From Armatimonadota bacterium (GTDB lineage: Bacteria > Armatimonadota > Zipacnadia > Zipacnadales > JABUFB01): DNA of 64,000 nt. This document shows positions 1,824 to 45,465 of the stretch, piece by piece; position 1 is the stretch's first letter; every line of letters starts with the position of its first letter. Under the pieces are notes generated by a model, which saw only the letters and a list, made by a program, of their open reading frames with translations, did no database searches and was not told the origin of the DNA. The stretch covers positions 124,001 through 188,000 of the forward strand of contig JABUFB010000012.1 of the NCBI GenBank assembly GCA_013314775.1, read 5' to 3'. Both the position numbers and the translations under genes were made by a program.

Positions 1824-2849
1824 TTACCAATTCGGATCATTTCGGTGCGTGTTGCGGAAAGTGCCGGGAGCCATGTCCGTAGCTTGGCGGAAGGACCGTG
1901 TAAAATGGGCCGGATATGCAAAGCCGACAAGCCTGGCGACCTCGGAGACGGGCAGATCGGTGCATGCCAGGAGTTGCCGGGCCTGTTCCATGCGCCGGGC
2001 GTTCACGTGCTGCATGACACTTACACCCATCTGGGCTTTGAAGAGGCGCTGAAGGTGGGGGATCGACAGATGAGCAGCCGAGGCGAGGCGCGCCAGACTC
2101 AGATGCTCGTGCAGGTGGCTGTCGACATAGTCCAGTACGCGACGAACCACTGGCGCCACGTCTCGGGCAGATTCATCCAGCGGCGGTGCAAGGGTGGGCA
2201 GGCTCGTGCGAAGGTCTGCACAGACTGAAAGAACCAGCGCTCGCAGTAGCGCGTGGGGCAGAGCGTCGCAGTACTCGGAGGAGCGACGCAGGGCATCGAT
2301 GAGCATGTCGGTCAGGGCAAGGAGCCGGTCATCGGGGAGGAACACCCGTGGCCACCCCACCCGGTGTTCGCCTTCCTCAACCCGACAGCTCCCCACGAAA
2401 GCCCCAGAAGGCAGGGGTACGAGCCACAAAGTCTCGTTTGGAAGCCTCTGGGGCTGGGCACGCTCCCAGTGGGGCCGGGTACCGTCGGGCTGAGGCACCC
2501 CCGGCGGCACGACGAAAAAGCTCCCCGCTCTGAGACTGATGATGTGGTCGGCTATCCGGTAGTCCGCTTCCCCCTCCAGCAAGCATCCCAGTACGGGAAA
2601 TCGCAGGACCTCGAGAGCTTCGGCCCTGCGGTAGCCGGCGTGCAGGTAGCTCCGGCCTGATGTGTCAAGGGGCGCTGCCTGGTCCAACGGTTTCGGGTGC
2701 CTGCGAACGTCTGCGCTGCGGCTTGTGGACAGGGCGGCGGGTTCAGCGAGGATGAGCGGCGCCGTCGCTGGTGGCGCAACCATACCGGATAGCCGGGTGC
2801 TCAGTGCGTGGAGGTCGATCTTGCCGCCGGGTGCTTTCCCCTGTCCCAT
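1824..2849 (-). CDS. AraC-family transcriptional regulator
   Basis: The 341-residue protein has two parts. The N-terminal half contains a cupin-like sensing fold (RFPVLGCLLEGEADYRI through AGSFFVVPPGVPQPDG, about residues 75-125). The C-terminal 105 residues carry the two AraC helix-turn-helix motifs, LSLARLASAAHLSIPHLQRL and VSEVARLVGFAYPAHFTRSF, the second with the usual GF.....F.R.F spacing. The open frame extends upstream through the neighbour, but ATG 2849 is 17 nt past that gene's stop and fits the domain layout. The regulator sits between an alpha/alpha-toroid gene and a UroD-family gene, with phased repeats directly downstream that may be its operator. The inducer is unknown, probably a sugar. 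Confidence 0.9.
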   Translation of the reverse strand: MGQGKAPGGKIDLHALSTRLSGMVAPPATAPLILAEPAALSTSRSADVRRHPKPLDQAAPLDTSGRSYLHAGYRRAEALEVLRFPVLGCLLEGEADYRIADHIISLRAGSFFVVPPGVPQPDGTRPHWERAQPQRLPNETLWLVPLPSGAFVGSCRVEEGEHRVGWPRVFLPDDRLLALTDMLIDALRRSSEYCDALPHALLRALVLSVCADLRTSLPTLAPPLDESARDVAPVVRRVLDYVDSHLHEHLSLARLASAAHLSIPHLQRLFKAQMGVSVMQHVNARRMEQARQLLACTDLPVSEVARLVGFAYPAHFTRSFRQATDMAPGTFRNTHRNDPNW

Positions 2850-2866
2850 AGGTGGTCCCGCTTCCG

Positions 2867-3982
2867 CTAGAACTGCTGGGTGGTCGCGTCCTGTCCCCTC
2901 ACCCCCGCCCATTCCTGCCACGGTACCCAGCCCAGTTCCTCCCGGGCGCCGCAGAGATTGGCCAGGAGCGACAGTGCGCTGCAGACCAGCGCCGTTCCGG
3001 TGATGTCCGCCTGGTCCTTCACGGGGGCCAGTTGCAGGCCGCCGTGGTTCGCCAACGACCCGCCCGGGCCGTAACTGAAGGCTCCGTCGGGTCGCAGGAG
3101 AGGCAAGAATCCGTCGAAGCAGCGGGACGTAACCTCGGCCACTTCGTCCCGCCGGTAGTCGCAGTGGCGCAGGGCGATGTCCAGCACATAGGCCACGTCG
3201 AAGATGCTGCAGGCATCCGGCGTGTCGCGCAGGGCAGGTGATTCGGCGAAGCCACGCAGGCACAGGTCCACCACGCGCTCCGGATACTGGACAGGCATGT
3301 CGGTGATGTTCAGGACCTGAATCCAGACTTTGAAAATGCCGTTGATGAGCACATTCAAGGCGATGTCGCTGCCATCCGACCACGCGCCGGTCTCTGGGTC
3401 CTGGTGCTTCACGAGCCAGTCCACCCCGGCGGCGATGATCTCCGGCGCATTCTCGTCGCCCATGAGGCGGTTGAGGTTCTGGAAGATGATCGCCGCACCG
3501 GCCCAGGAGCCCGCACCCCATGGGTTGTGCCAGTGGAGGCTCTCCATGTAGTCCACGATCTCGGCAGGCGAGCGGAAAGCCTCGGCGTGATGCAGGCGAT
3601 GTGGAGGACGGCCGCCAAGGCCCAAGAGTGTCATGATGCCGTTGCGCGTGGTCCAGCGGCGCACATTGGCGACCTCCTCAGCGGTAGGCTGTGCGTGCGT
3701 TGTGATGATGTGGCGCTCCATGCCCTCGTCGATCATGAGCCCGTCTTCGGGGCGCTGCATGGAACACAGGTAGTCGATCCACCCGGTACGTTCCTGGTCG
3801 GAGATGGTCATGCCAAGGCAACTGCGGATGTTGTAGGCCATGGAGGTGGAATCGAGGTCGAAAGGCTCGAAGGCATCGGTGGCGAAGCGGTAGCGTCCCG
3901 GTCCCGACGGGTGCGCCAGCGAACTGAGCCAACGGGGCACCGAATCCTTCGCTTCGAGTAACCAGCGGGGCAGGTTGGGCAT
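2867..3982 (-). CDS. Alpha/alpha-toroid (prenyltransferase/squalene-cyclase-like repeat) protein
   Basis: This 371-residue protein without a visible signal peptide shows helical-hairpin repeats with QW-like elements, such as DWLVKHQDPETGAWSDG and a later LLRPDGAFSYGPGG. These are typical of the six-hairpin toroid shared by terpene cyclases, prenyltransferases and some glycan-active proteins. The DxDD motif of class II terpene cyclases is not seen, so terpene cyclisation is doubtful. Proteins of this shape occur as uncharacterised members of carbohydrate loci. ATG 3982 is preferred over the upstream in-frame start at 4228 because a CGGGAG ribosome site lies about 8 nt before it and the upstream 82 residues look non-coding. 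It leads a leftward run with the AraC and UroD genes. Confidence 0.7.
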   Translation of the reverse strand: MPNLPRWLLEAKDSVPRWLSSLAHPSGPGRYRFATDAFEPFDLDSTSMAYNIRSCLGMTISDQERTGWIDYLCSMQRPEDGLMIDEGMERHIITTHAQPTAEEVANVRRWTTRNGIMTLLGLGGRPPHRLHHAEAFRSPAEIVDYMESLHWHNPWGAGSWAGAAIIFQNLNRLMGDENAPEIIAAGVDWLVKHQDPETGAWSDGSDIALNVLINGIFKVWIQVLNITDMPVQYPERVVDLCLRGFAESPALRDTPDACSIFDVAYVLDIALRHCDYRRDEVAEVTSRCFDGFLPLLRPDGAFSYGPGGSLANHGGLQLAPVKDQADITGTALVCSALSLLANLCGAREELGWVPWQEWAGVRGQDATTQQF

Positions 3983-4337
3983 GAGTGGCTCCCGGTACGG
4001 CTTTCTGCAGACTGCAGCCAACCGGTGGTTTCCCCGCGCGGGCGTATCCGTCCTGTCGCCCGTGCAGGTCAGGCAAGATGCGACGGGGAATTGCGCCCGA
4101 CGTCTGAGGCAGGTCTGGCCTGGAGAGCTCACGGCGTGGTTTCGACGGAACGGCTTGTGACGTGGACCATGGACTGTGAGGCCGAAAAGGGCGCGCAATG
4201 ATGAGCGGTGGCTATCGACCTGCAGCAAGGCGAGAAGGTTGGAGTCCGACTGGGCGCGCCGGCACAGCAGGTGTCACGCCACGCCGATGGCTTGCTGGAC
4301 GCGAACTGCCATACTCACGCCCGAACAGGAGATAATC
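3983..4337. other. Divergent intergenic region
   Basis: This 355-bp gap separates divergently transcribed genes, so promoters for both must lie here. I see no consensus -10/-35 pair, riboswitch or strong hairpin. The only clear signal is the AGGAGA ribosome site at 4327-4332 serving the rightward gene. Confidence 0.5.
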
Positions 4338-38199: not shown

Positions 38200-40104
38200 T
38201 CACTCTCCGGTCGGGGTGACGGCATCCTGGCGGCGTGCTACAGCGCGCAGCAACTGATCCAGGTGGGTGCCTGCCGCAGCGGCCCCTGGGATCCCTGGAT
38301 GACCAAGCACGACGAGAACATGCTGGCCGCCGAGTTGCGTGAGGGCAAGCACCACCGAACCGGTCTCTCCCGCGAGCACCACGCGGTCGCAGTCCGCCAA
38401 CCGCGAGGCAAAGCAGAGGTCTTCGCACAGCCCGAACACCGCGGCAGCCTCGCCCGGTGGCAAGACACTTCCTGGCTGGCGGCGTGTAAGGGCCACGACC
38501 TGTCGCCCAGGGCAGTAACTGGCGGTCGCCGTCAACCCGGTTGCTTCCGGCAGATCCGCAAACAGCGGCGCGATGCGGCTCTGCAGATCCTCATCCGGGT
38601 ACGCAGGAACCGCCTGGGGGCGCGAGATCGGCGGCCAGGCAGGCAGCGCCTCCTCCTGCAATGCTGCAGTGACCTTGCCCACGGCAAGGTCAGCGATGCC
38701 CAGGTTGGCTTCGCCGGGCAGCGTGAGCGCCACCACCAGGCCCCTGTTTTCGCTGCGCACCGCGCTAACACCCACGTACTTGCGCCCAACCCTGAGGAAA
38801 CCGCGTGCGAAGGCGCCATAGCCGCACGTCTCCAGTATCCCGGAAGCCGCGCACAGGAGGTCTTCCAGCACCGCGGGAGCGTTCTCGCCGGGCTCACCTG
38901 GCTCTAGCGCCCATGCGATTGCCCGGCCGGACGGGGTCTCTCCCGGCGCAGGGCGGGCCGCACCTACCGAGAGGAGCGCCCGGGTAGCTGCATCGGCCCA
39001 CCCAGACAGGGTTGCGGCATCTGCAATTGGCGCTCGACTTGCTGAGACCTCGTAAGTGAACAGCCCGTGCTCAGAGGGCACGAACGTTGGGCTTTCCGGT
39101 TCGGGTTCGGGTTCGGGTTCGGGTTCGGGTTCGGGTTCGGGTTCCGGTTCCGGTTCCGGTTCCGGTTCGGGTTCGGGCTCGGGCTCCTCGGGGGTATCAT
39201 CGAGGGCCAGGTGCGGCTGGATGACCTGAACGTTGGGCGGCTCGTCGTCTTGCACCACCGCCGGCCGTTCGGGTCGTTTCGGCTCCACCGGGGCATCGTC
39301 GTCGAGCGCCTGCAGGATGGCCTCGCGCGAGGAGAGGGCCGGCGCGGCGGCCTGCTCCGGCTCCGGAGCAGACATTGCGATGACCTCGGGCTCAGGCTTG
39401 GCCGTCTCGTGCTCAGCGCTGGGCTCCACAGCCTGGGGGCCACGCGGCACGGGCCGGAGTTCAAACCGTGGGCGTGCCGGTTCCCTTTCGGGTCCCGGCT
39501 CTGCTTGCGTCGTGGCAGGAGGCTGTTCGGCCTCTCCCCGCGGCTCCTCCTCACCCTCGCGGCGCATGAGTTGCTCGATCAGTTCGCGTCGGCGCTCGCG
39601 GGTGGGTTCCTGCTCCCGGATAGTTTCGGGGCTCTCGGACGGCCTGATGGCAGGCTGCAAAGTGGCCCGAGCTGCCCCGAAGGCGCCCTTGATGAGCCAC
39701 AGAAGCAGAACGGTGACCGCGATTTGCACAAGGACACCGGGGAAATACTCGGCGTAGTAAAGCAAGAAGGCCTGCTGCAGCGTCTCGGCTTGCTCGGGGC
39801 TATGTGCGGTGGCGGCAAGAAGCGCCTCGCCAAAGCGGGTGACGATGCCGATAGCGATCCCGGCCACGACATGTAGGCCACGCAGGGAACCACCGAACTG
39901 CCCAAGCATCAGCGCCGCGTAAGCCAGAACCTCCGCCACCAGGATCACAGGCAAGATTCGGCCGTGGGGAATGAGTGTGCGCGCGATGCCCGCTTCCCAC
40001 ATCTGGGCGCTGCCCAGGCCGCCGACGATCAGGGTGCTGACCACGAAAAGCGTGGCAGCAAGCAGCGAAATGCGGTGGCGTGCCCGGGGCCGAGATTGTT
40101 TCAA
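38200..40104 (-). CDS. Membrane protein with Pro-Glu repeat linker and C-terminal globular domains
   Basis: The 634-residue protein has four N-terminal membrane helices (about residues 12-155). A long charged Glu/Pro-rich linker follows (165-360) with about 15 uninterrupted Pro-Glu dipeptides. The C-terminal part has two related globular regions (about 370-500 and 510-630; ENRGLVVALTLPGEANLGIADLAVGKV and VLAGETGSVVLALTQLGGQHVLVVLG). The second resembles a roadblock/LC7-type fold, but this is tentative. A linker this stiff could carry the cytoplasmic domains away from the membrane. The downstream gene (4-nt gap) is also a membrane protein, so the two may form a complex. Function unknown. Confidence 0.7.
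   Translation of the reverse strand: MKQSRPRARHRISLLAATLFVVSTLIVGGLGSAQMWEAGIARTLIPHGRILPVILVAEVLAYAALMLGQFGGSLRGLHVVAGIAIGIVTRFGEALLAATAHSPEQAETLQQAFLLYYAEYFPGVLVQIAVTVLLLWLIKGAFGAARATLQPAIRPSESPETIREQEPTRERRRELIEQLMRREGEEEPRGEAEQPPATTQAEPGPEREPARPRFELRPVPRGPQAVEPSAEHETAKPEPEVIAMSAPEPEQAAAPALSSREAILQALDDDAPVEPKRPERPAVVQDDEPPNVQVIQPHLALDDTPEEPEPEPEPEPEPEPEPEPEPEPEPEPEPEPESPTFVPSEHGLFTYEVSASRAPIADAATLSGWADAATRALLSVGAARPAPGETPSGRAIAWALEPGEPGENAPAVLEDLLCAASGILETCGYGAFARGFLRVGRKYVGVSAVRSENRGLVVALTLPGEANLGIADLAVGKVTAALQEEALPAWPPISRPQAVPAYPDEDLQSRIAPLFADLPEATGLTATASYCPGRQVVALTRRQPGSVLPPGEAAAVFGLCEDLCFASRLADCDRVVLAGETGSVVLALTQLGGQHVLVVLGHPGIPGAAAAGTHLDQLLRAVARRQDAVTPTGE
39095..39186. repeat. In-frame hexanucleotide tandem repeat coding Pro-Glu
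   Basis: About fifteen copies of the hexamer GGTTCG, with GGTTCC and GGCTCG variants, lie in tandem. On the coding (minus) strand each unit encodes Pro-Glu. The near-identical DNA units make slippage likely, and any change by whole units keeps the frame. Confidence 0.9.
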
Positions 40105-41222: not shown

Positions 41223-41990
41223 TTGCTGGCATATCTCGGGAGGCAGGTTGTCCGCTTTTTTTCGTTTTTCGGGCAGACCACTCTCCTGCATATGGATGTG
41301 CTGGGGGGTATCCTGCGGGGCCGCCTTGAATATGCTCCGACGGTACACCAGATGGCCCACATCGGCGTGGAGAGCCTGCCCATCGCAGCGGTGACCATGC
41401 TGATGTCCGGCGCCGTTCTCGCATATCACGGCGCGATCGAAGCCGGCCAGTGGGGCGTGGACGAATATGCCGGGTGGTTGGTTGCTGAGATGATGTGCCG
41501 CGAGTTGTCGCCTGTGCTCGTGGCATTTGTGGTCGCCGCACGCGCTGGGTCTGCCATGACGGCGGAACTCGGCACGATGAAGGTCACTGAACAGATTGAC
41601 GCTCTGCGGGCGCTGGCCACCAGTCCCGTGGATTTCCTTGTGGCCCCGCGGTACATTGCGTGCATCGTGATGGTGCCGATCCTTGTGTTCATGGGCGATG
41701 TGATCGGGGTGATGGGCGGGTATCTGATGGCCGTCACCACCCCATATCTCAACGCTGCCGACTATTTCGCGTACATCCCGGGCGGCCTGGCGACCACCAC
41801 CATTGTCGGGGGAGTCGCCAAAGGCCTCTTCTTCGGGATGATTATCGCCGTGGTGAGTTGCCACCAGGGGCTGACCTGCGGGATGGCGTCGGAGGCCGTG
41901 GGCAAGGCCACGACGCGCGCTGTCGTCTACTGCATCATGCTGGTATACGCCGCCGACCTGCTCCTGGCACCCATCCTGTTCCAGGTGTGA
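41223..41990 (+). CDS. mlaE: MlaE-like phospholipid ABC transporter permease
   Basis: The 255-residue membrane protein matches the MlaE/TtgA2 permease family: [61 protein letters not shown] (the family's most conserved stretch) and a C-terminal [19 protein letters not shown]. It forms the inner-membrane channel of a phospholipid transporter with the next two genes. The start is TTG 41223; no strong ribosome site is seen, so the exact start is uncertain. It leads an operon behind a near-consensus promoter. Confidence 0.93.
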
Positions 41991-42049: not shown

Positions 42050-42817
42050 ATGATGTCCGAAACGCGTGAGCCGATCATCCAGGTCCGGAATCTCTGCTAC
42101 CAGGTGAACGGCTACCAGGTCCTGCGCAGCGTGACTTTCGACGTCTACCCGGGCGAGATCTTTGGCGTCATGGGCATGAGCGGTTCCGGCAAGAGCACTC
42201 TGCTCAAGATCCTGATGGGCTTGCTGCCGGTCTGCGGTGGAGACATCACGATCAAGGGCACATCCATTCTCCAGCTGACCGAGCAAGAGCTCATGGCAGT
42301 GCGGCGGGATATGGGTATGTGCTTCCAGTATTCCGCGCTCTTTGACTCGATGACTGTCGGCGAGAACGTGGCTTTCGGTCTCAAGCGCCGGAAGAAGCTG
42401 CCGCCGGCGGAAATCAAGCGACTGGTGGATGAGCATCTGGACGAGGTCGGTCTCCACGGGCTTGCTGATAAGATGCCGGCCGAGCTGTCGGGCGGCATGC
42501 GCAAGCGCGTGGGTATCGCCCGGGAGCTGATCCTGCAGCCCGAGATCTTGCTCTATGATGAGCCCAGCGCGGGGCTTGATCCGATCATGTCGGCAGTCAT
42601 CGACCGGCTGATCGTTGACTTGAGAGCGAAGTTCGGGATTACGTCGCTGGTTGTGACCCACGAAGTGGATGAGCTGTTCGCCATCTCCGACCGCGTTATG
42701 ATGATCCACGAGGGCGAGGTCGTGGCCTGTGATACGCCGCAGGGTCTGAGCGAGTCGGATAACGCCATTGTCCAGCAGTTCGTGCACGGCAGCGCTGAGG
42801 GGCCAATCAAGGTGTAA
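42050..42817 (+). CDS. mlaF: MlaF-like ABC transporter ATPase
   Basis: The 255-residue ATPase has Walker A GMSGSGKST, Q-loop CFQYSALFDS, signature LSGGMRKRVGIARELI, Walker B ILLYDEPSAGLD and the switch histidine in VVTHEVDELF. The sequence VRRDMGMCFQYSALFDSMTV is typical of the MlaF branch. It would power the MlaE permease. It starts ATGATG 59 nt after the permease gene and is followed by the MCE protein. Confidence 0.95.
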   Translation: MMSETREPIIQVRNLCYQVNGYQVLRSVTFDVYPGEIFGVMGMSGSGKSTLLKILMGLLPVCGGDITIKGTSILQLTEQELMAVRRDMGMCFQYSALFDSMTVGENVAFGLKRRKKLPPAEIKRLVDEHLDEVGLHGLADKMPAELSGGMRKRVGIARELILQPEILLYDEPSAGLDPIMSAVIDRLIVDLRAKFGITSLVVTHEVDELFAISDRVMMIHEGEVVACDTPQGLSESDNAIVQQFVHGSAEGPIKV

Positions 42818-42882: not shown

Positions 42883-45465
42883 GTGGTTGCCGAGGCCAAA
42901 GTCGGCATCATGTTCCTGATAGTCATCCTGCTCGCGGTGGGAACCGGCGTGTATCTCACGGGGCGTCTAGGGTACCTGTCAGGCCAGCAGCTCAGCATTC
43001 ACTTCGCGAATGTTGAGGGGCTTTCCAAGGGCGCGAAAGTCCTCTTGATGGGCATGGAAGTCGGCCGCGTGCTGGATATCCGGATGGCTACTCCCCAGGA
43101 GTTGCGAGAGTTCCCGGAGAAGCCCATCGTGGTCCATGTGTCCATCGACAGGGATGTCAATCTCAAGACCAGCGACCGGTTCGTTATCACCCAGTCCGGC
43201 CTGCTGGGAGACACCAGCATTGCGGTCAGGCGCCTGACTCAGGAACAATTGGAGGCGGAAGCCGCCCTCTCCGGCGAACCGCTGGAGAAGCCGCGCCCAA
43301 TCCCTCCGGGACACCACGTCGCCGGCGTGAAAGCCGTGGGTATCACCGAGCTGGGCGATGATGCCCACGTCTTGCTGGCGCAGGTAAAATCGGCGATCGC
43401 CGATTTCCAGGAAGTCTACACGAGCCCGGAGATCCGCGAGCAGTTGCCGCTTATCCTGGCAAATGTCGAGCGCGCCACTGCCAACGCCATGGATTTCTCC
43501 AGAGCGCTGGCGCGGATCTCGATGCAAAATGAAGGGCGAATTGGCGAGATAGCCACCCAGATCGCGTCCGCGGCGCGGGAACTTGACCTGAGCGCCCAGC
43601 GAGTGCGTCAAATGATCCTCCACAGCGCGCCCAATATCGAGCGCAGCACCGGACGGATCGCCCAGATGATCGAGGGCAGCGCGGGAAGCGTTGAAGCGAC
43701 CGCGAGGTACATGGAGCGCACGGGAGGGCTGGTTGTCGCCAGCGCTGAGGACATCCGCAAGGTCACCGGACGCGCGGCGCAACTGGTGGACACCAGCGCC
43801 GACGACCTGGAGCAGACCATCGGCTCCGTGCGGAAGGCATCGGACCTGGTGCTGTCAACCGCCGAGAATGTGGATGCAACCACGCGCGAGGCCAGGCAGT
43901 CGCTGGGCCGGATGACCACTCGCCTGGATGAGATGGTGCAGAACACCGCGGCCAACATTGAAAAGACCGCGGCGACCGTCGAGGAGACCTCTCGGCTCTC
44001 GGCCGAAGAATTCCGGCGCTTCCTGGCCAAGTCCTCCAGCAACCTCGAGGCCGCCGCAGCGCAGGTCGAGAAGGCCACGCGAGAAATGGCGGCCCTCGTG
44101 GAGACCAGCGGCGCTGATATCGGCAGGTCCACGAAGCGCATCGCGGCCTTGGTGGAGAAGAGCGCGGGAGATGTGGAGACCGCCAGCGCCAACCTCGCCG
44201 GGATGTCCTCGCGCGTGCATGAAGATGTTGTGGCGATGACTGCCCGGGCCCGCGCGATGATGGAAACCAGCGCGGCGGATGTCGAGAAAACAAGCTCGGA
44301 CATCGCCGCCACGGCGAGTAAGCTGCGGGCGGACATGGAAGCGGTCACCGGCCGGGCGCGAACCATGGTTGAGACGTCGGCGACCAATATCGAGAAGACC
44401 ACCGGGCGTATCGCTGAGCTTGCCGAAAAAAGCAGTGCGGATATTGAGTTCACCACCCGGCGCATCCACGATCTCGTGGCGATGTCACCGATACCCGGCG
44501 ATCTGGCCGCCGCCAGCGGTCACATCCGCCGGTCGGCTGCGAACGTGGAGACGGTCACGAACGAACTGGTGTCCGCTCTCGGCGACCCGGAAGTGGATGG
44601 CAGCATCCGCAAAGCGCTGTCCAATCTGTCCCGGGCCAGCGATCACATTCTGGGCGTGACCCAGGAAGCCGAAGCGCTCCTGCGAGACGGCCGAAGGAAT
44701 GTGAACGATGAGCAGATGTGGGCCAACGTGCGGCAGGCCATCCAGCGGCTGAACCAGTCGGCAGAGGACCTTGAGGCGATTACCGAGCACGGGCGCAAGA
44801 TACTCACTGACCCGGCCGTCACCGAGGATATCACCGCGACCGTATCGAACGCTCGAAAGTTGACGGAGCGCGGCGCTGCGGTGGCTGAGAAAGCCGAGGA
44901 GACCCTCACGCGGATTGACGATACGGTGGCCGGGGTCAAGGACATTTCGCGCAGGTTGAGCCCGAGCTACAGCGAAGCATACACAGGCCTGGAAGCCATC
45001 GAGGACTTTGGCCTGCGCGCCGATCTCGTGGGCGACTTCTATTTCGGCGACAAGAGCGATCTGTTCTGGCGTCTGGGAATCCGTGACCTGGGTGATTCGG
45101 AGACCTTCATCCTGCAGCGCGGCATGCACACCGGCTCCGGCGGAACTTTCCGCGCCGGCCTGTTTGCCAATGAGCTTGGTGTGGGTTATGACTACCAGCT
45201 CAGCGACCGGTTCCGGCTGGAACTGGATGCCTGGGACCCGGATGACCCGCGCCTGGACGCCCGGGGACTGTGGCGCCTGAGCGACTGCTGGGACCTGACG
45301 CTGGGCGCCAGCGAAGTCTTCGCCGGAACCGAACCGTTCATCGGTCTCAGGCGCAGCGCAAACCTGGGTGGGACGCCGCCTGCGGCGAGGCAGCGGTGCC
45401 TTCCGAGAAAGCCCGGCCTTCAGCGGGCACAGCCGACGGAACGTGACGGCGCCGCGAAACGCTGA
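42883..45465 (+). CDS. MlaD-like MCE protein with long helical repeat and C-terminal beta domain
   Basis: The roughly 860-residue protein has an N-terminal anchor (EAKVGIMFLIVILLAVGTG) and one MCE domain (about 34-115, GQQLSIHFANVEGLSKGAKVLLMGMEVGRV). A very long helical region with repeats of the type SA.DIEKTTGRIA.LVE follows (about 240-535), then another helical stretch. It ends in a beta-strand-rich segment with alternating hydrophobic residues (about 705-830; DLVGDFYFGDKSDLFWRLG, GYDYQLSDRFRLELDAWD). E. coli MlaD is only 183 residues. The layout suggests a tube or needle reaching towards the outer membrane. Start GTG 42883 fits the anchor; GTG 42835 is an alternative. Confidence 0.88.
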   Translation: MVAEAKVGIMFLIVILLAVGTGVYLTGRLGYLSGQQLSIHFANVEGLSKGAKVLLMGMEVGRVLDIRMATPQELREFPEKPIVVHVSIDRDVNLKTSDRFVITQSGLLGDTSIAVRRLTQEQLEAEAALSGEPLEKPRPIPPGHHVAGVKAVGITELGDDAHVLLAQVKSAIADFQEVYTSPEIREQLPLILANVERATANAMDFSRALARISMQNEGRIGEIATQIASAARELDLSAQRVRQMILHSAPNIERSTGRIAQMIEGSAGSVEATARYMERTGGLVVASAEDIRKVTGRAAQLVDTSADDLEQTIGSVRKASDLVLSTAENVDATTREARQSLGRMTTRLDEMVQNTAANIEKTAATVEETSRLSAEEFRRFLAKSSSNLEAAAAQVEKATREMAALVETSGADIGRSTKRIAALVEKSAGDVETASANLAGMSSRVHEDVVAMTARARAMMETSAADVEKTSSDIAATASKLRADMEAVTGRARTMVETSATNIEKTTGRIAELAEKSSADIEFTTRRIHDLVAMSPIPGDLAAASGHIRRSAANVETVTNELVSALGDPEVDGSIRKALSNLSRASDHILGVTQEAEALLRDGRRNVNDEQMWANVRQAIQRLNQSAEDLEAITEHGRKILTDPAVTEDITATVSNARKLTERGAAVAEKAEETLTRIDDTVAGVKDISRRLSPSYSEAYTGLEAIEDFGLRADLVGDFYFGDKSDLFWRLGIRDLGDSETFILQRGMHTGSGGTFRAGLFANELGVGYDYQLSDRFRLELDAWDPDDPRLDARGLWRLSDCWDLTLGASEVFAGTEPFIGLRRSANLGGTPPAARQRCLPRKPGLQRAQPTERDGAAKR

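Follow-up and report, generated by a model that had tools for sequence, protein, structure and literature searches.

Giant MlaD and giant TamB in one family of Armatimonadota: a lipid bridge possibly stretched across a wide periplasm

The helical region of the MCE protein encoded at 42883..45465 of the window (the whole stretch of DNA analyzed here, 64,000 nucleotides) contains a family-specific extension of approximately 290 residues, which is matched by a giant TamB protein in the same genome. This is the real oddity of the gene and it was missed in the original prediction. The domain plan of the protein is already known; the paired stretching of MlaD and TamB is, as far as our searches show, new within the literature searched, and no report of it was found in the open-licence literature. 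We favor, with moderate confidence, the view that a known lipid bridge has been stretched in the window's family so as to reach across a periplasm that is unusually wide (approximately 60-90 nm). The broader proposition, namely that the lengths of the MlaD tube and of TamB increase jointly within the phylum and thereby act as rulers, so that the window's family would have about doubled its periplasm to approximately 60-90 nm and this would be readable from sequence, appears to us to be evenly poised.

The gene stands behind mlaE and mlaF on a 250-kb contig of a 6.1 Mb Armatimonadota genome. Its product had been described as an MCE protein with a long helical region and a beta-rich end, and this is borne out by a Pfam MlaD match, a hydrophobicity period of 3.58 residues and a beta moment with a z-score of 5.1. 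The features of the locus are as follows:

mlaE, 41223..41990, + strand: permease of a lipid ABC transporter, 255 aa (Pfam MlaE, E 3.6e-68; TIGR00056 above cut-off).
mlaF, 42050..42817, + strand: ABC ATPase, 255 aa (Pfam ABC_tran, E 4.2e-33).
Giant MCE/MlaD protein, 42883..45465, + strand: 860 aa, GTG start (Pfam MlaD, E 2.8e-12).
N-terminal transmembrane helix, 42901..42960, + strand: approximately residues 7-26, hydrophobic stretch GIMFLIVILLAVGTGVYL read from the sequence, position conserved in relatives.
MCE domain, 42982..43227, + strand: residues 34-115 (Pfam alignment bounds).
Long helical region, 43360..44955, + strand: approximately residues 160-691 (period 3.58; low-confidence AlphaFold secondary structure).
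Family-specific insertion, 43618..44478, + strand: 287 residues (246-532), approximately 16 x 18 aa, amphipathic (alignment with G006, lag-18 signal).
C-terminal beta domain, 44956..45357, + strand: residues 692-825, approximately 10 amphipathic strands (conservation in the phylum, beta moment).
Polar C-terminal tail, 45358..45462, + strand: residues 826-860, present in the window's family (alignment with relatives).

The genome contains a single MlaE, the one listed above, and the product of 42883..45465 is its sole MCE protein. The top NCBIfam match of mlaF is the MlaF model, with a score below the cut-off of this model. The Pfam MlaD match of the giant protein (residues 34-115) reaches 47.2 bits against a curated cut-off of 25.1, and the NCBIfam equivalog OM_asym_MlaD gives 43.2 bits, which is below its cut-off of 135, so that the protein does not classify as an E. 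coli-type MlaD. The frame stops at 45465; GTG 42883 was chosen as start over the earlier GTG 42835, since the resulting N-terminus MVAEAKVG agrees with those of the relatives (MSxEAKVG). The gene order mlaE-mlaF-mlaD is conserved in almost all of the Armatimonadota loci that were read, and operon and domains are shared with the other long MlaD proteins of the phylum. In G057, two MCE genes occur in tandem behind mlaE and mlaF, a short one (134 aa) immediately preceding the long one. Elsewhere in the window, a 634-aa ORF (38200-40104, - strand) carries a long Glu-Pro repeat (EPEPEP...) between a membrane-like N-terminal part and a C-terminal domain.

The window protein very probably belongs to the transenvelope MlaEFD kind, as known from Veillonella parvula, since it combines adjoining mlaE and mlaF genes and the absence of MlaA and MlaC with an extended helix behind the MCE domain. 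V. parvula possesses only MlaEFD, and its MlaD (419 aa) consists of a transmembrane segment, an MCE domain, a helix of approximately 150 residues and a predicted ten-stranded barrel (PMC10665443). On fractionation, the part comprising transmembrane segment and MCE domain is recovered with the inner membrane and the barrel is found with the outer one, and the transenvelope model published in 2023 is backed by this localization of domains and by mutants; the modelled MlaD tube measures 23.5 nm and the periplasm 24.2 nm (PMC10665443). The idea that such a protein spans the periplasm alone is therefore not new, but it holds for the window protein inasmuch as its layout should allow it to do so, with the terminal domain likely in the outer membrane. 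The accompanying statement that MlaD homologs are usually short has to be corrected, since 85% of them are of the long form, the short one being confined to Proteobacteria; moreover, diderm Terrabacteria lack MlaABC (PMC10665443).

The window shares with V. parvula mlaE, mlaF and one long MlaD composed of transmembrane segment, MCE domain, helix and a beta domain of approximately ten strands, again without MlaA and MlaC. It differs in the size of MlaD (860 aa versus 419) and of its helical region (approximately 530 aa versus approximately 150), in the array of 18-residue repeats and in the giant TamB (4,300 codons) encoded by its genome. E. coli MlaD (MlaFEDB) has in common the MCE domain, the inner-membrane anchor and the partners MlaE and MlaF, but with 183 aa it possesses neither a long helix nor a beta domain and depends on MlaC and MlaA. 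PqiB and mycobacterial Mce1 likewise combine an MCE ring with a subsequent helical tube whose lumen is hydrophobic (PMC10665443); however, PqiB has three MCE rings, and in the heterohexameric Mce1 the end barrel consists of six strands, one from each chain.

The absence of mlaA and mlaC, originally noted for the window, extends to the whole genome. In this genome and 60 relatives, the MlaC profile gave no match over the cut-off and the MlaA profile none, and the controls E. coli and Caulobacter were detected with both; copies elsewhere in the window's genome were thus not found. A lone MlaC-like match among the 61 genomes (G051:C350) is weak and, with 22.2 bits, under the curated cut-off. As to mlaB, there is no STAS gene between or beside mlaEFD in the window. 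Since LpxC, Omp85 and TamB are present in the genome, the cell is a diderm, and judging from these genes it probably makes lipid A.

Within the helical region, hydrophobicity recurs with a period of 3.58 residues at a power of 24.8, compared with a maximum of 10.6 in 500 shuffles. Of the repeat spacings named originally, 18 (z 8.5), 36 (z 8.2), 25 (z 4.4) and 29 (z 4.1) were recovered as self-similarity lags, together with one of 72 (z 6.5), and that of 22 is outside the 30 strongest. The basic repeat unit is 18 residues (7+11, five turns), in agreement with the suggested fit to heptads and hendecads. No recent tandem array was found in the DNA under the helical region; the DNA repeats are weak and the similarity resides at the protein level, and therefore the repeat array is old. 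Prolines are scarce, with seven in all and one of them inside the insertion at 246-532. An AlphaFold model of the full protein shows helices at 160-691 with short gaps at low confidence (pLDDT 38), and nothing predicts a compact fold of this region, although the models of the full protein and of the C-terminal domain (pLDDT 38 and 40), both monomers built with one relative of 92% identity, are too uncertain to be given weight.

The stretch between the MCE match and the beta domain, taken as the length of the helical region, comprises 569 residues in the window protein and 562 and 507 residues in two further genera of the family, compared with 268-285 residues in the sister families f2, f3, f4 and f6. 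Alignment with G006 (family f4) reveals a single clean insertion at 246-532, whose length of 287 residues is one short of 16 x 18; with other relatives, the aligner scatters the extra helical residues. The sister families of the same order are devoid of this insertion, and most other Armatimonadota MlaD proteins have 440-670 aa. Among the families tested, only the window's family shows a strong lag-18 signal. The transenvelope layout is standard for MlaD in Armatimonadota, and it is its length that makes the window protein unusual. The MlaD of G054 shows a repeat signal of 54 residues (z 7.5) in its helical region instead of 18, which suggests that it was lengthened separately.

A search for the C-terminal beta domain in other MCE proteins, as originally proposed, detected it in 144 of the 151 Armatimonadota genomes, almost always in single copy (the gene is broken in one genome, and two copies exist in another one). 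The mean column identity is 34% (42 sequences), and outside the window's genus the domain is 22-61% identical to that of the window. Hydrophobic residues alternate along it (beta moment z 5.1 over 42 relatives), and approximately ten amphipathic strands were counted by eye. An aromatic last residue is common among outer-membrane barrels, and 14 of 43 relatives end on one. The domain is likely an outer-membrane beta-barrel. We infer this identity from the sequence pattern, because no solved structure or Pfam family matched significantly: a profile search of the PDB returned only weak matches to TonB receptors, and a Pfam scan gave nothing for the window protein and one weak OMP_b-brl match in a relative. 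Likewise, one scan of IMG/VR gave no match to the C-terminal domain. The relatives mostly stop at or near the last beta strand, without the polar tail. There are some departures from the common plan, namely long MlaD proteins without the beta domain in G043 and G044 (one family; that of G043 ends in a proline-rich tail), an MlaD frame continuing for 429 codons beyond the beta domain in G127, and an insertion of approximately 70 residues splitting the MCE domain in G059, G072, G094 and G085 (family f24).

The TamB of the window's genome is encoded by a single uninterrupted frame of 4,300 codons (G000:C7:84000-103500) and has approximately 4,260 aa, with an N-terminal transmembrane helix, five DUF748 stretches and the TamB C-terminus; an Omp85 gene is located directly downstream. 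It is 2.4-fold longer than the TamB of the sister families (approximately 1,740 aa). Approximately residues 1-206 and 2685-4300 correspond in the alignment to the two ends of an ordinary TamB (G006), and about 2,480 extra residues are found in between. TamB is likewise giant in G002 (4,365 codons), and in G003 it has at least 2,882 codons in a copy that ends at the contig edge.

Both extensions can be converted into reach. An alpha helix rises 0.15 nm per residue, and TamB and YhdP have 1,259 and 1,266 aa. E. coli TamB was modelled with 17.8 nm, or 24.6 nm when extended, and YhdP with 26.8 nm (PMC11014939); these published dimensions, divided by these protein lengths, yield 0.014-0.021 nm per residue. 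The calculated added reach is approximately 43 nm for the MlaD insertion and approximately 35-53 nm for that of TamB. The whole reach amounts to approximately 79 nm for the MlaD helix and 60-90 nm for TamB in the window's genome, compared with 34 nm and 25-37 nm in the sister families, the helix values being maxima, calculated for a single straight helix after subtraction of a 44-residue linker. No fitting was involved in the agreement between the two proteins, and the TamB range is broad. Deinococcus radiodurans is the one case found that pairs a giant TamB with a wide periplasm: its TamB homolog (DR_146T) has 4,002 aa (PMC5382914), similar to the TamB of the window's genome and likewise in a deep-branching diderm, and its periplasm measures 121 +/- 4 nm by cryo-tomography (PMC9388160). 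The Deinococcus comparison differs from the window in offering no paired MlaD, as the related control Deinobacterium chartae gave no MCE match.

The lengths of the MlaD helix and of TamB are correlated in the phylum. In 55 genomes with a complete TamB (transmembrane helix found, no contig edge), which were partly picked after long frames had been seen and are therefore not a random sample, the Pearson coefficient is 0.89 and the Spearman coefficient 0.79, with a slope of 6.6 +/- 0.5 TamB residues per MlaD residue. Lengths were taken from domain bounds and the transmembrane helix, as stop-to-stop frames proved misleading in G127 and G152 and were dropped. The means of 28 families give a rho of 0.76; when the window's family is excluded, rho is 0.73. 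Independent contrasts of log lengths, on a tree built from MCE, barrel, MlaE and MlaF, give an r of 0.80 (sign-flip p 0.002), which falls to 0.49 (p 0.10) without the window's family. The phylogenetically independent support for the link is thus mostly one double event in this family; f24 and the clade f14/f19/f29/f33/f37 point in the same direction. Barrel length shows no such association (contrasts, -0.03), and Omp85 length, taken as a control, shows no correlation in 8 usable cases. Genome size and GC content were rejected as causes, since the partial correlations stay at 0.87 and 0.89. The OstA/LptA family, considered as a third ruler, gave only short, weak and multi-copy matches.

That the corrected correlation hangs on one family leaves room for another reading, in which the periplasm has ordinary width, both proteins grew by drift, as expansion comes easily to repeat arrays, and the additional repeats form slack, fold back on themselves, tilt or bend round the wall. 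It also gains from the genomes that break the length rule, such as G041 (helix 246, TamB 2,104), G007 (205 and 1,869) and G060 (helix 194; TamB 2,064, with a further copy of 1,594). Nevertheless, we consider it rather unlikely. Drift would have to account for a similar added reach (43 nm and 35-53 nm) of two unrelated proteins in the same lineage and for an insertion near a whole number of 18-residue units, while the barrel kept its length and MlaE, MlaF and the neighbors in the window are of ordinary length. Moreover, the published pair of TamB and periplasm in D. radiodurans agrees with the reading of a wide periplasm.

Characterized MCE proteins are lipid transporters, and in nearly all of the loci inspected the MlaD gene immediately follows mlaE and mlaF. 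Both observations make it improbable that the protein is a mechanical tether or spacer between inner membrane, wall and outer membrane, with an MCE ring but no lipid conduit, even though a long coiled coil with an outer-membrane domain recalls connectors of outer membrane and wall such as SlpA/OmpM (PMC9388160); furthermore, the Pfam scan gave no SLH domain. An assembly artefact or gene fusion can practically be dismissed, for although stop-to-stop frames are deceptive in GC-rich genomes (G127, G152), the same length and repeats recur in independent genomes, i.e. in a 92% identical protein from a MAG named Armatimonadetes bacterium and in proteins of 851 aa (another genus) and 789 aa (a third genus).

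On the preferred reading of a stretched lipid bridge, six copies of the long MlaD would form, by homology, a ring of MCE domains on MlaE2F2 in the inner membrane. The helices beyond this ring would probably assemble into a tube with its hydrophobic stripe inside, which would carry phospholipids, and the beta domains would anchor the far end of the tube in the outer membrane. Phospholipids could thereby pass without MlaC or MlaA, probably in the direction from the outer to the inner membrane. In V. parvula, the roles of MlaEFD and TamB are antagonistic (PMC10665443), and TamB may oppose the MlaEFD flow here as well, as proposed from the genetics of that organism. We propose that both proteins were lengthened because each of them has to bridge a periplasm of unusual width: selection for reach in the window's family would have added repeats to MlaD as well as TamB, and the approximately 16 additional helical repeats of 18 residues in the tube would have been acquired in parallel with the longer TamB.

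The width of the periplasm is known for few bacteria, and a genome gives no estimate of it at present. If the lengths of the MlaD tube and of TamB do track this width, estimates would become possible for uncultured lineages, and the co-evolution of envelope-spanning machines with the envelope would become directly testable. It would also support the view that MlaD and TamB are end-to-end bridges and not partial carriers.
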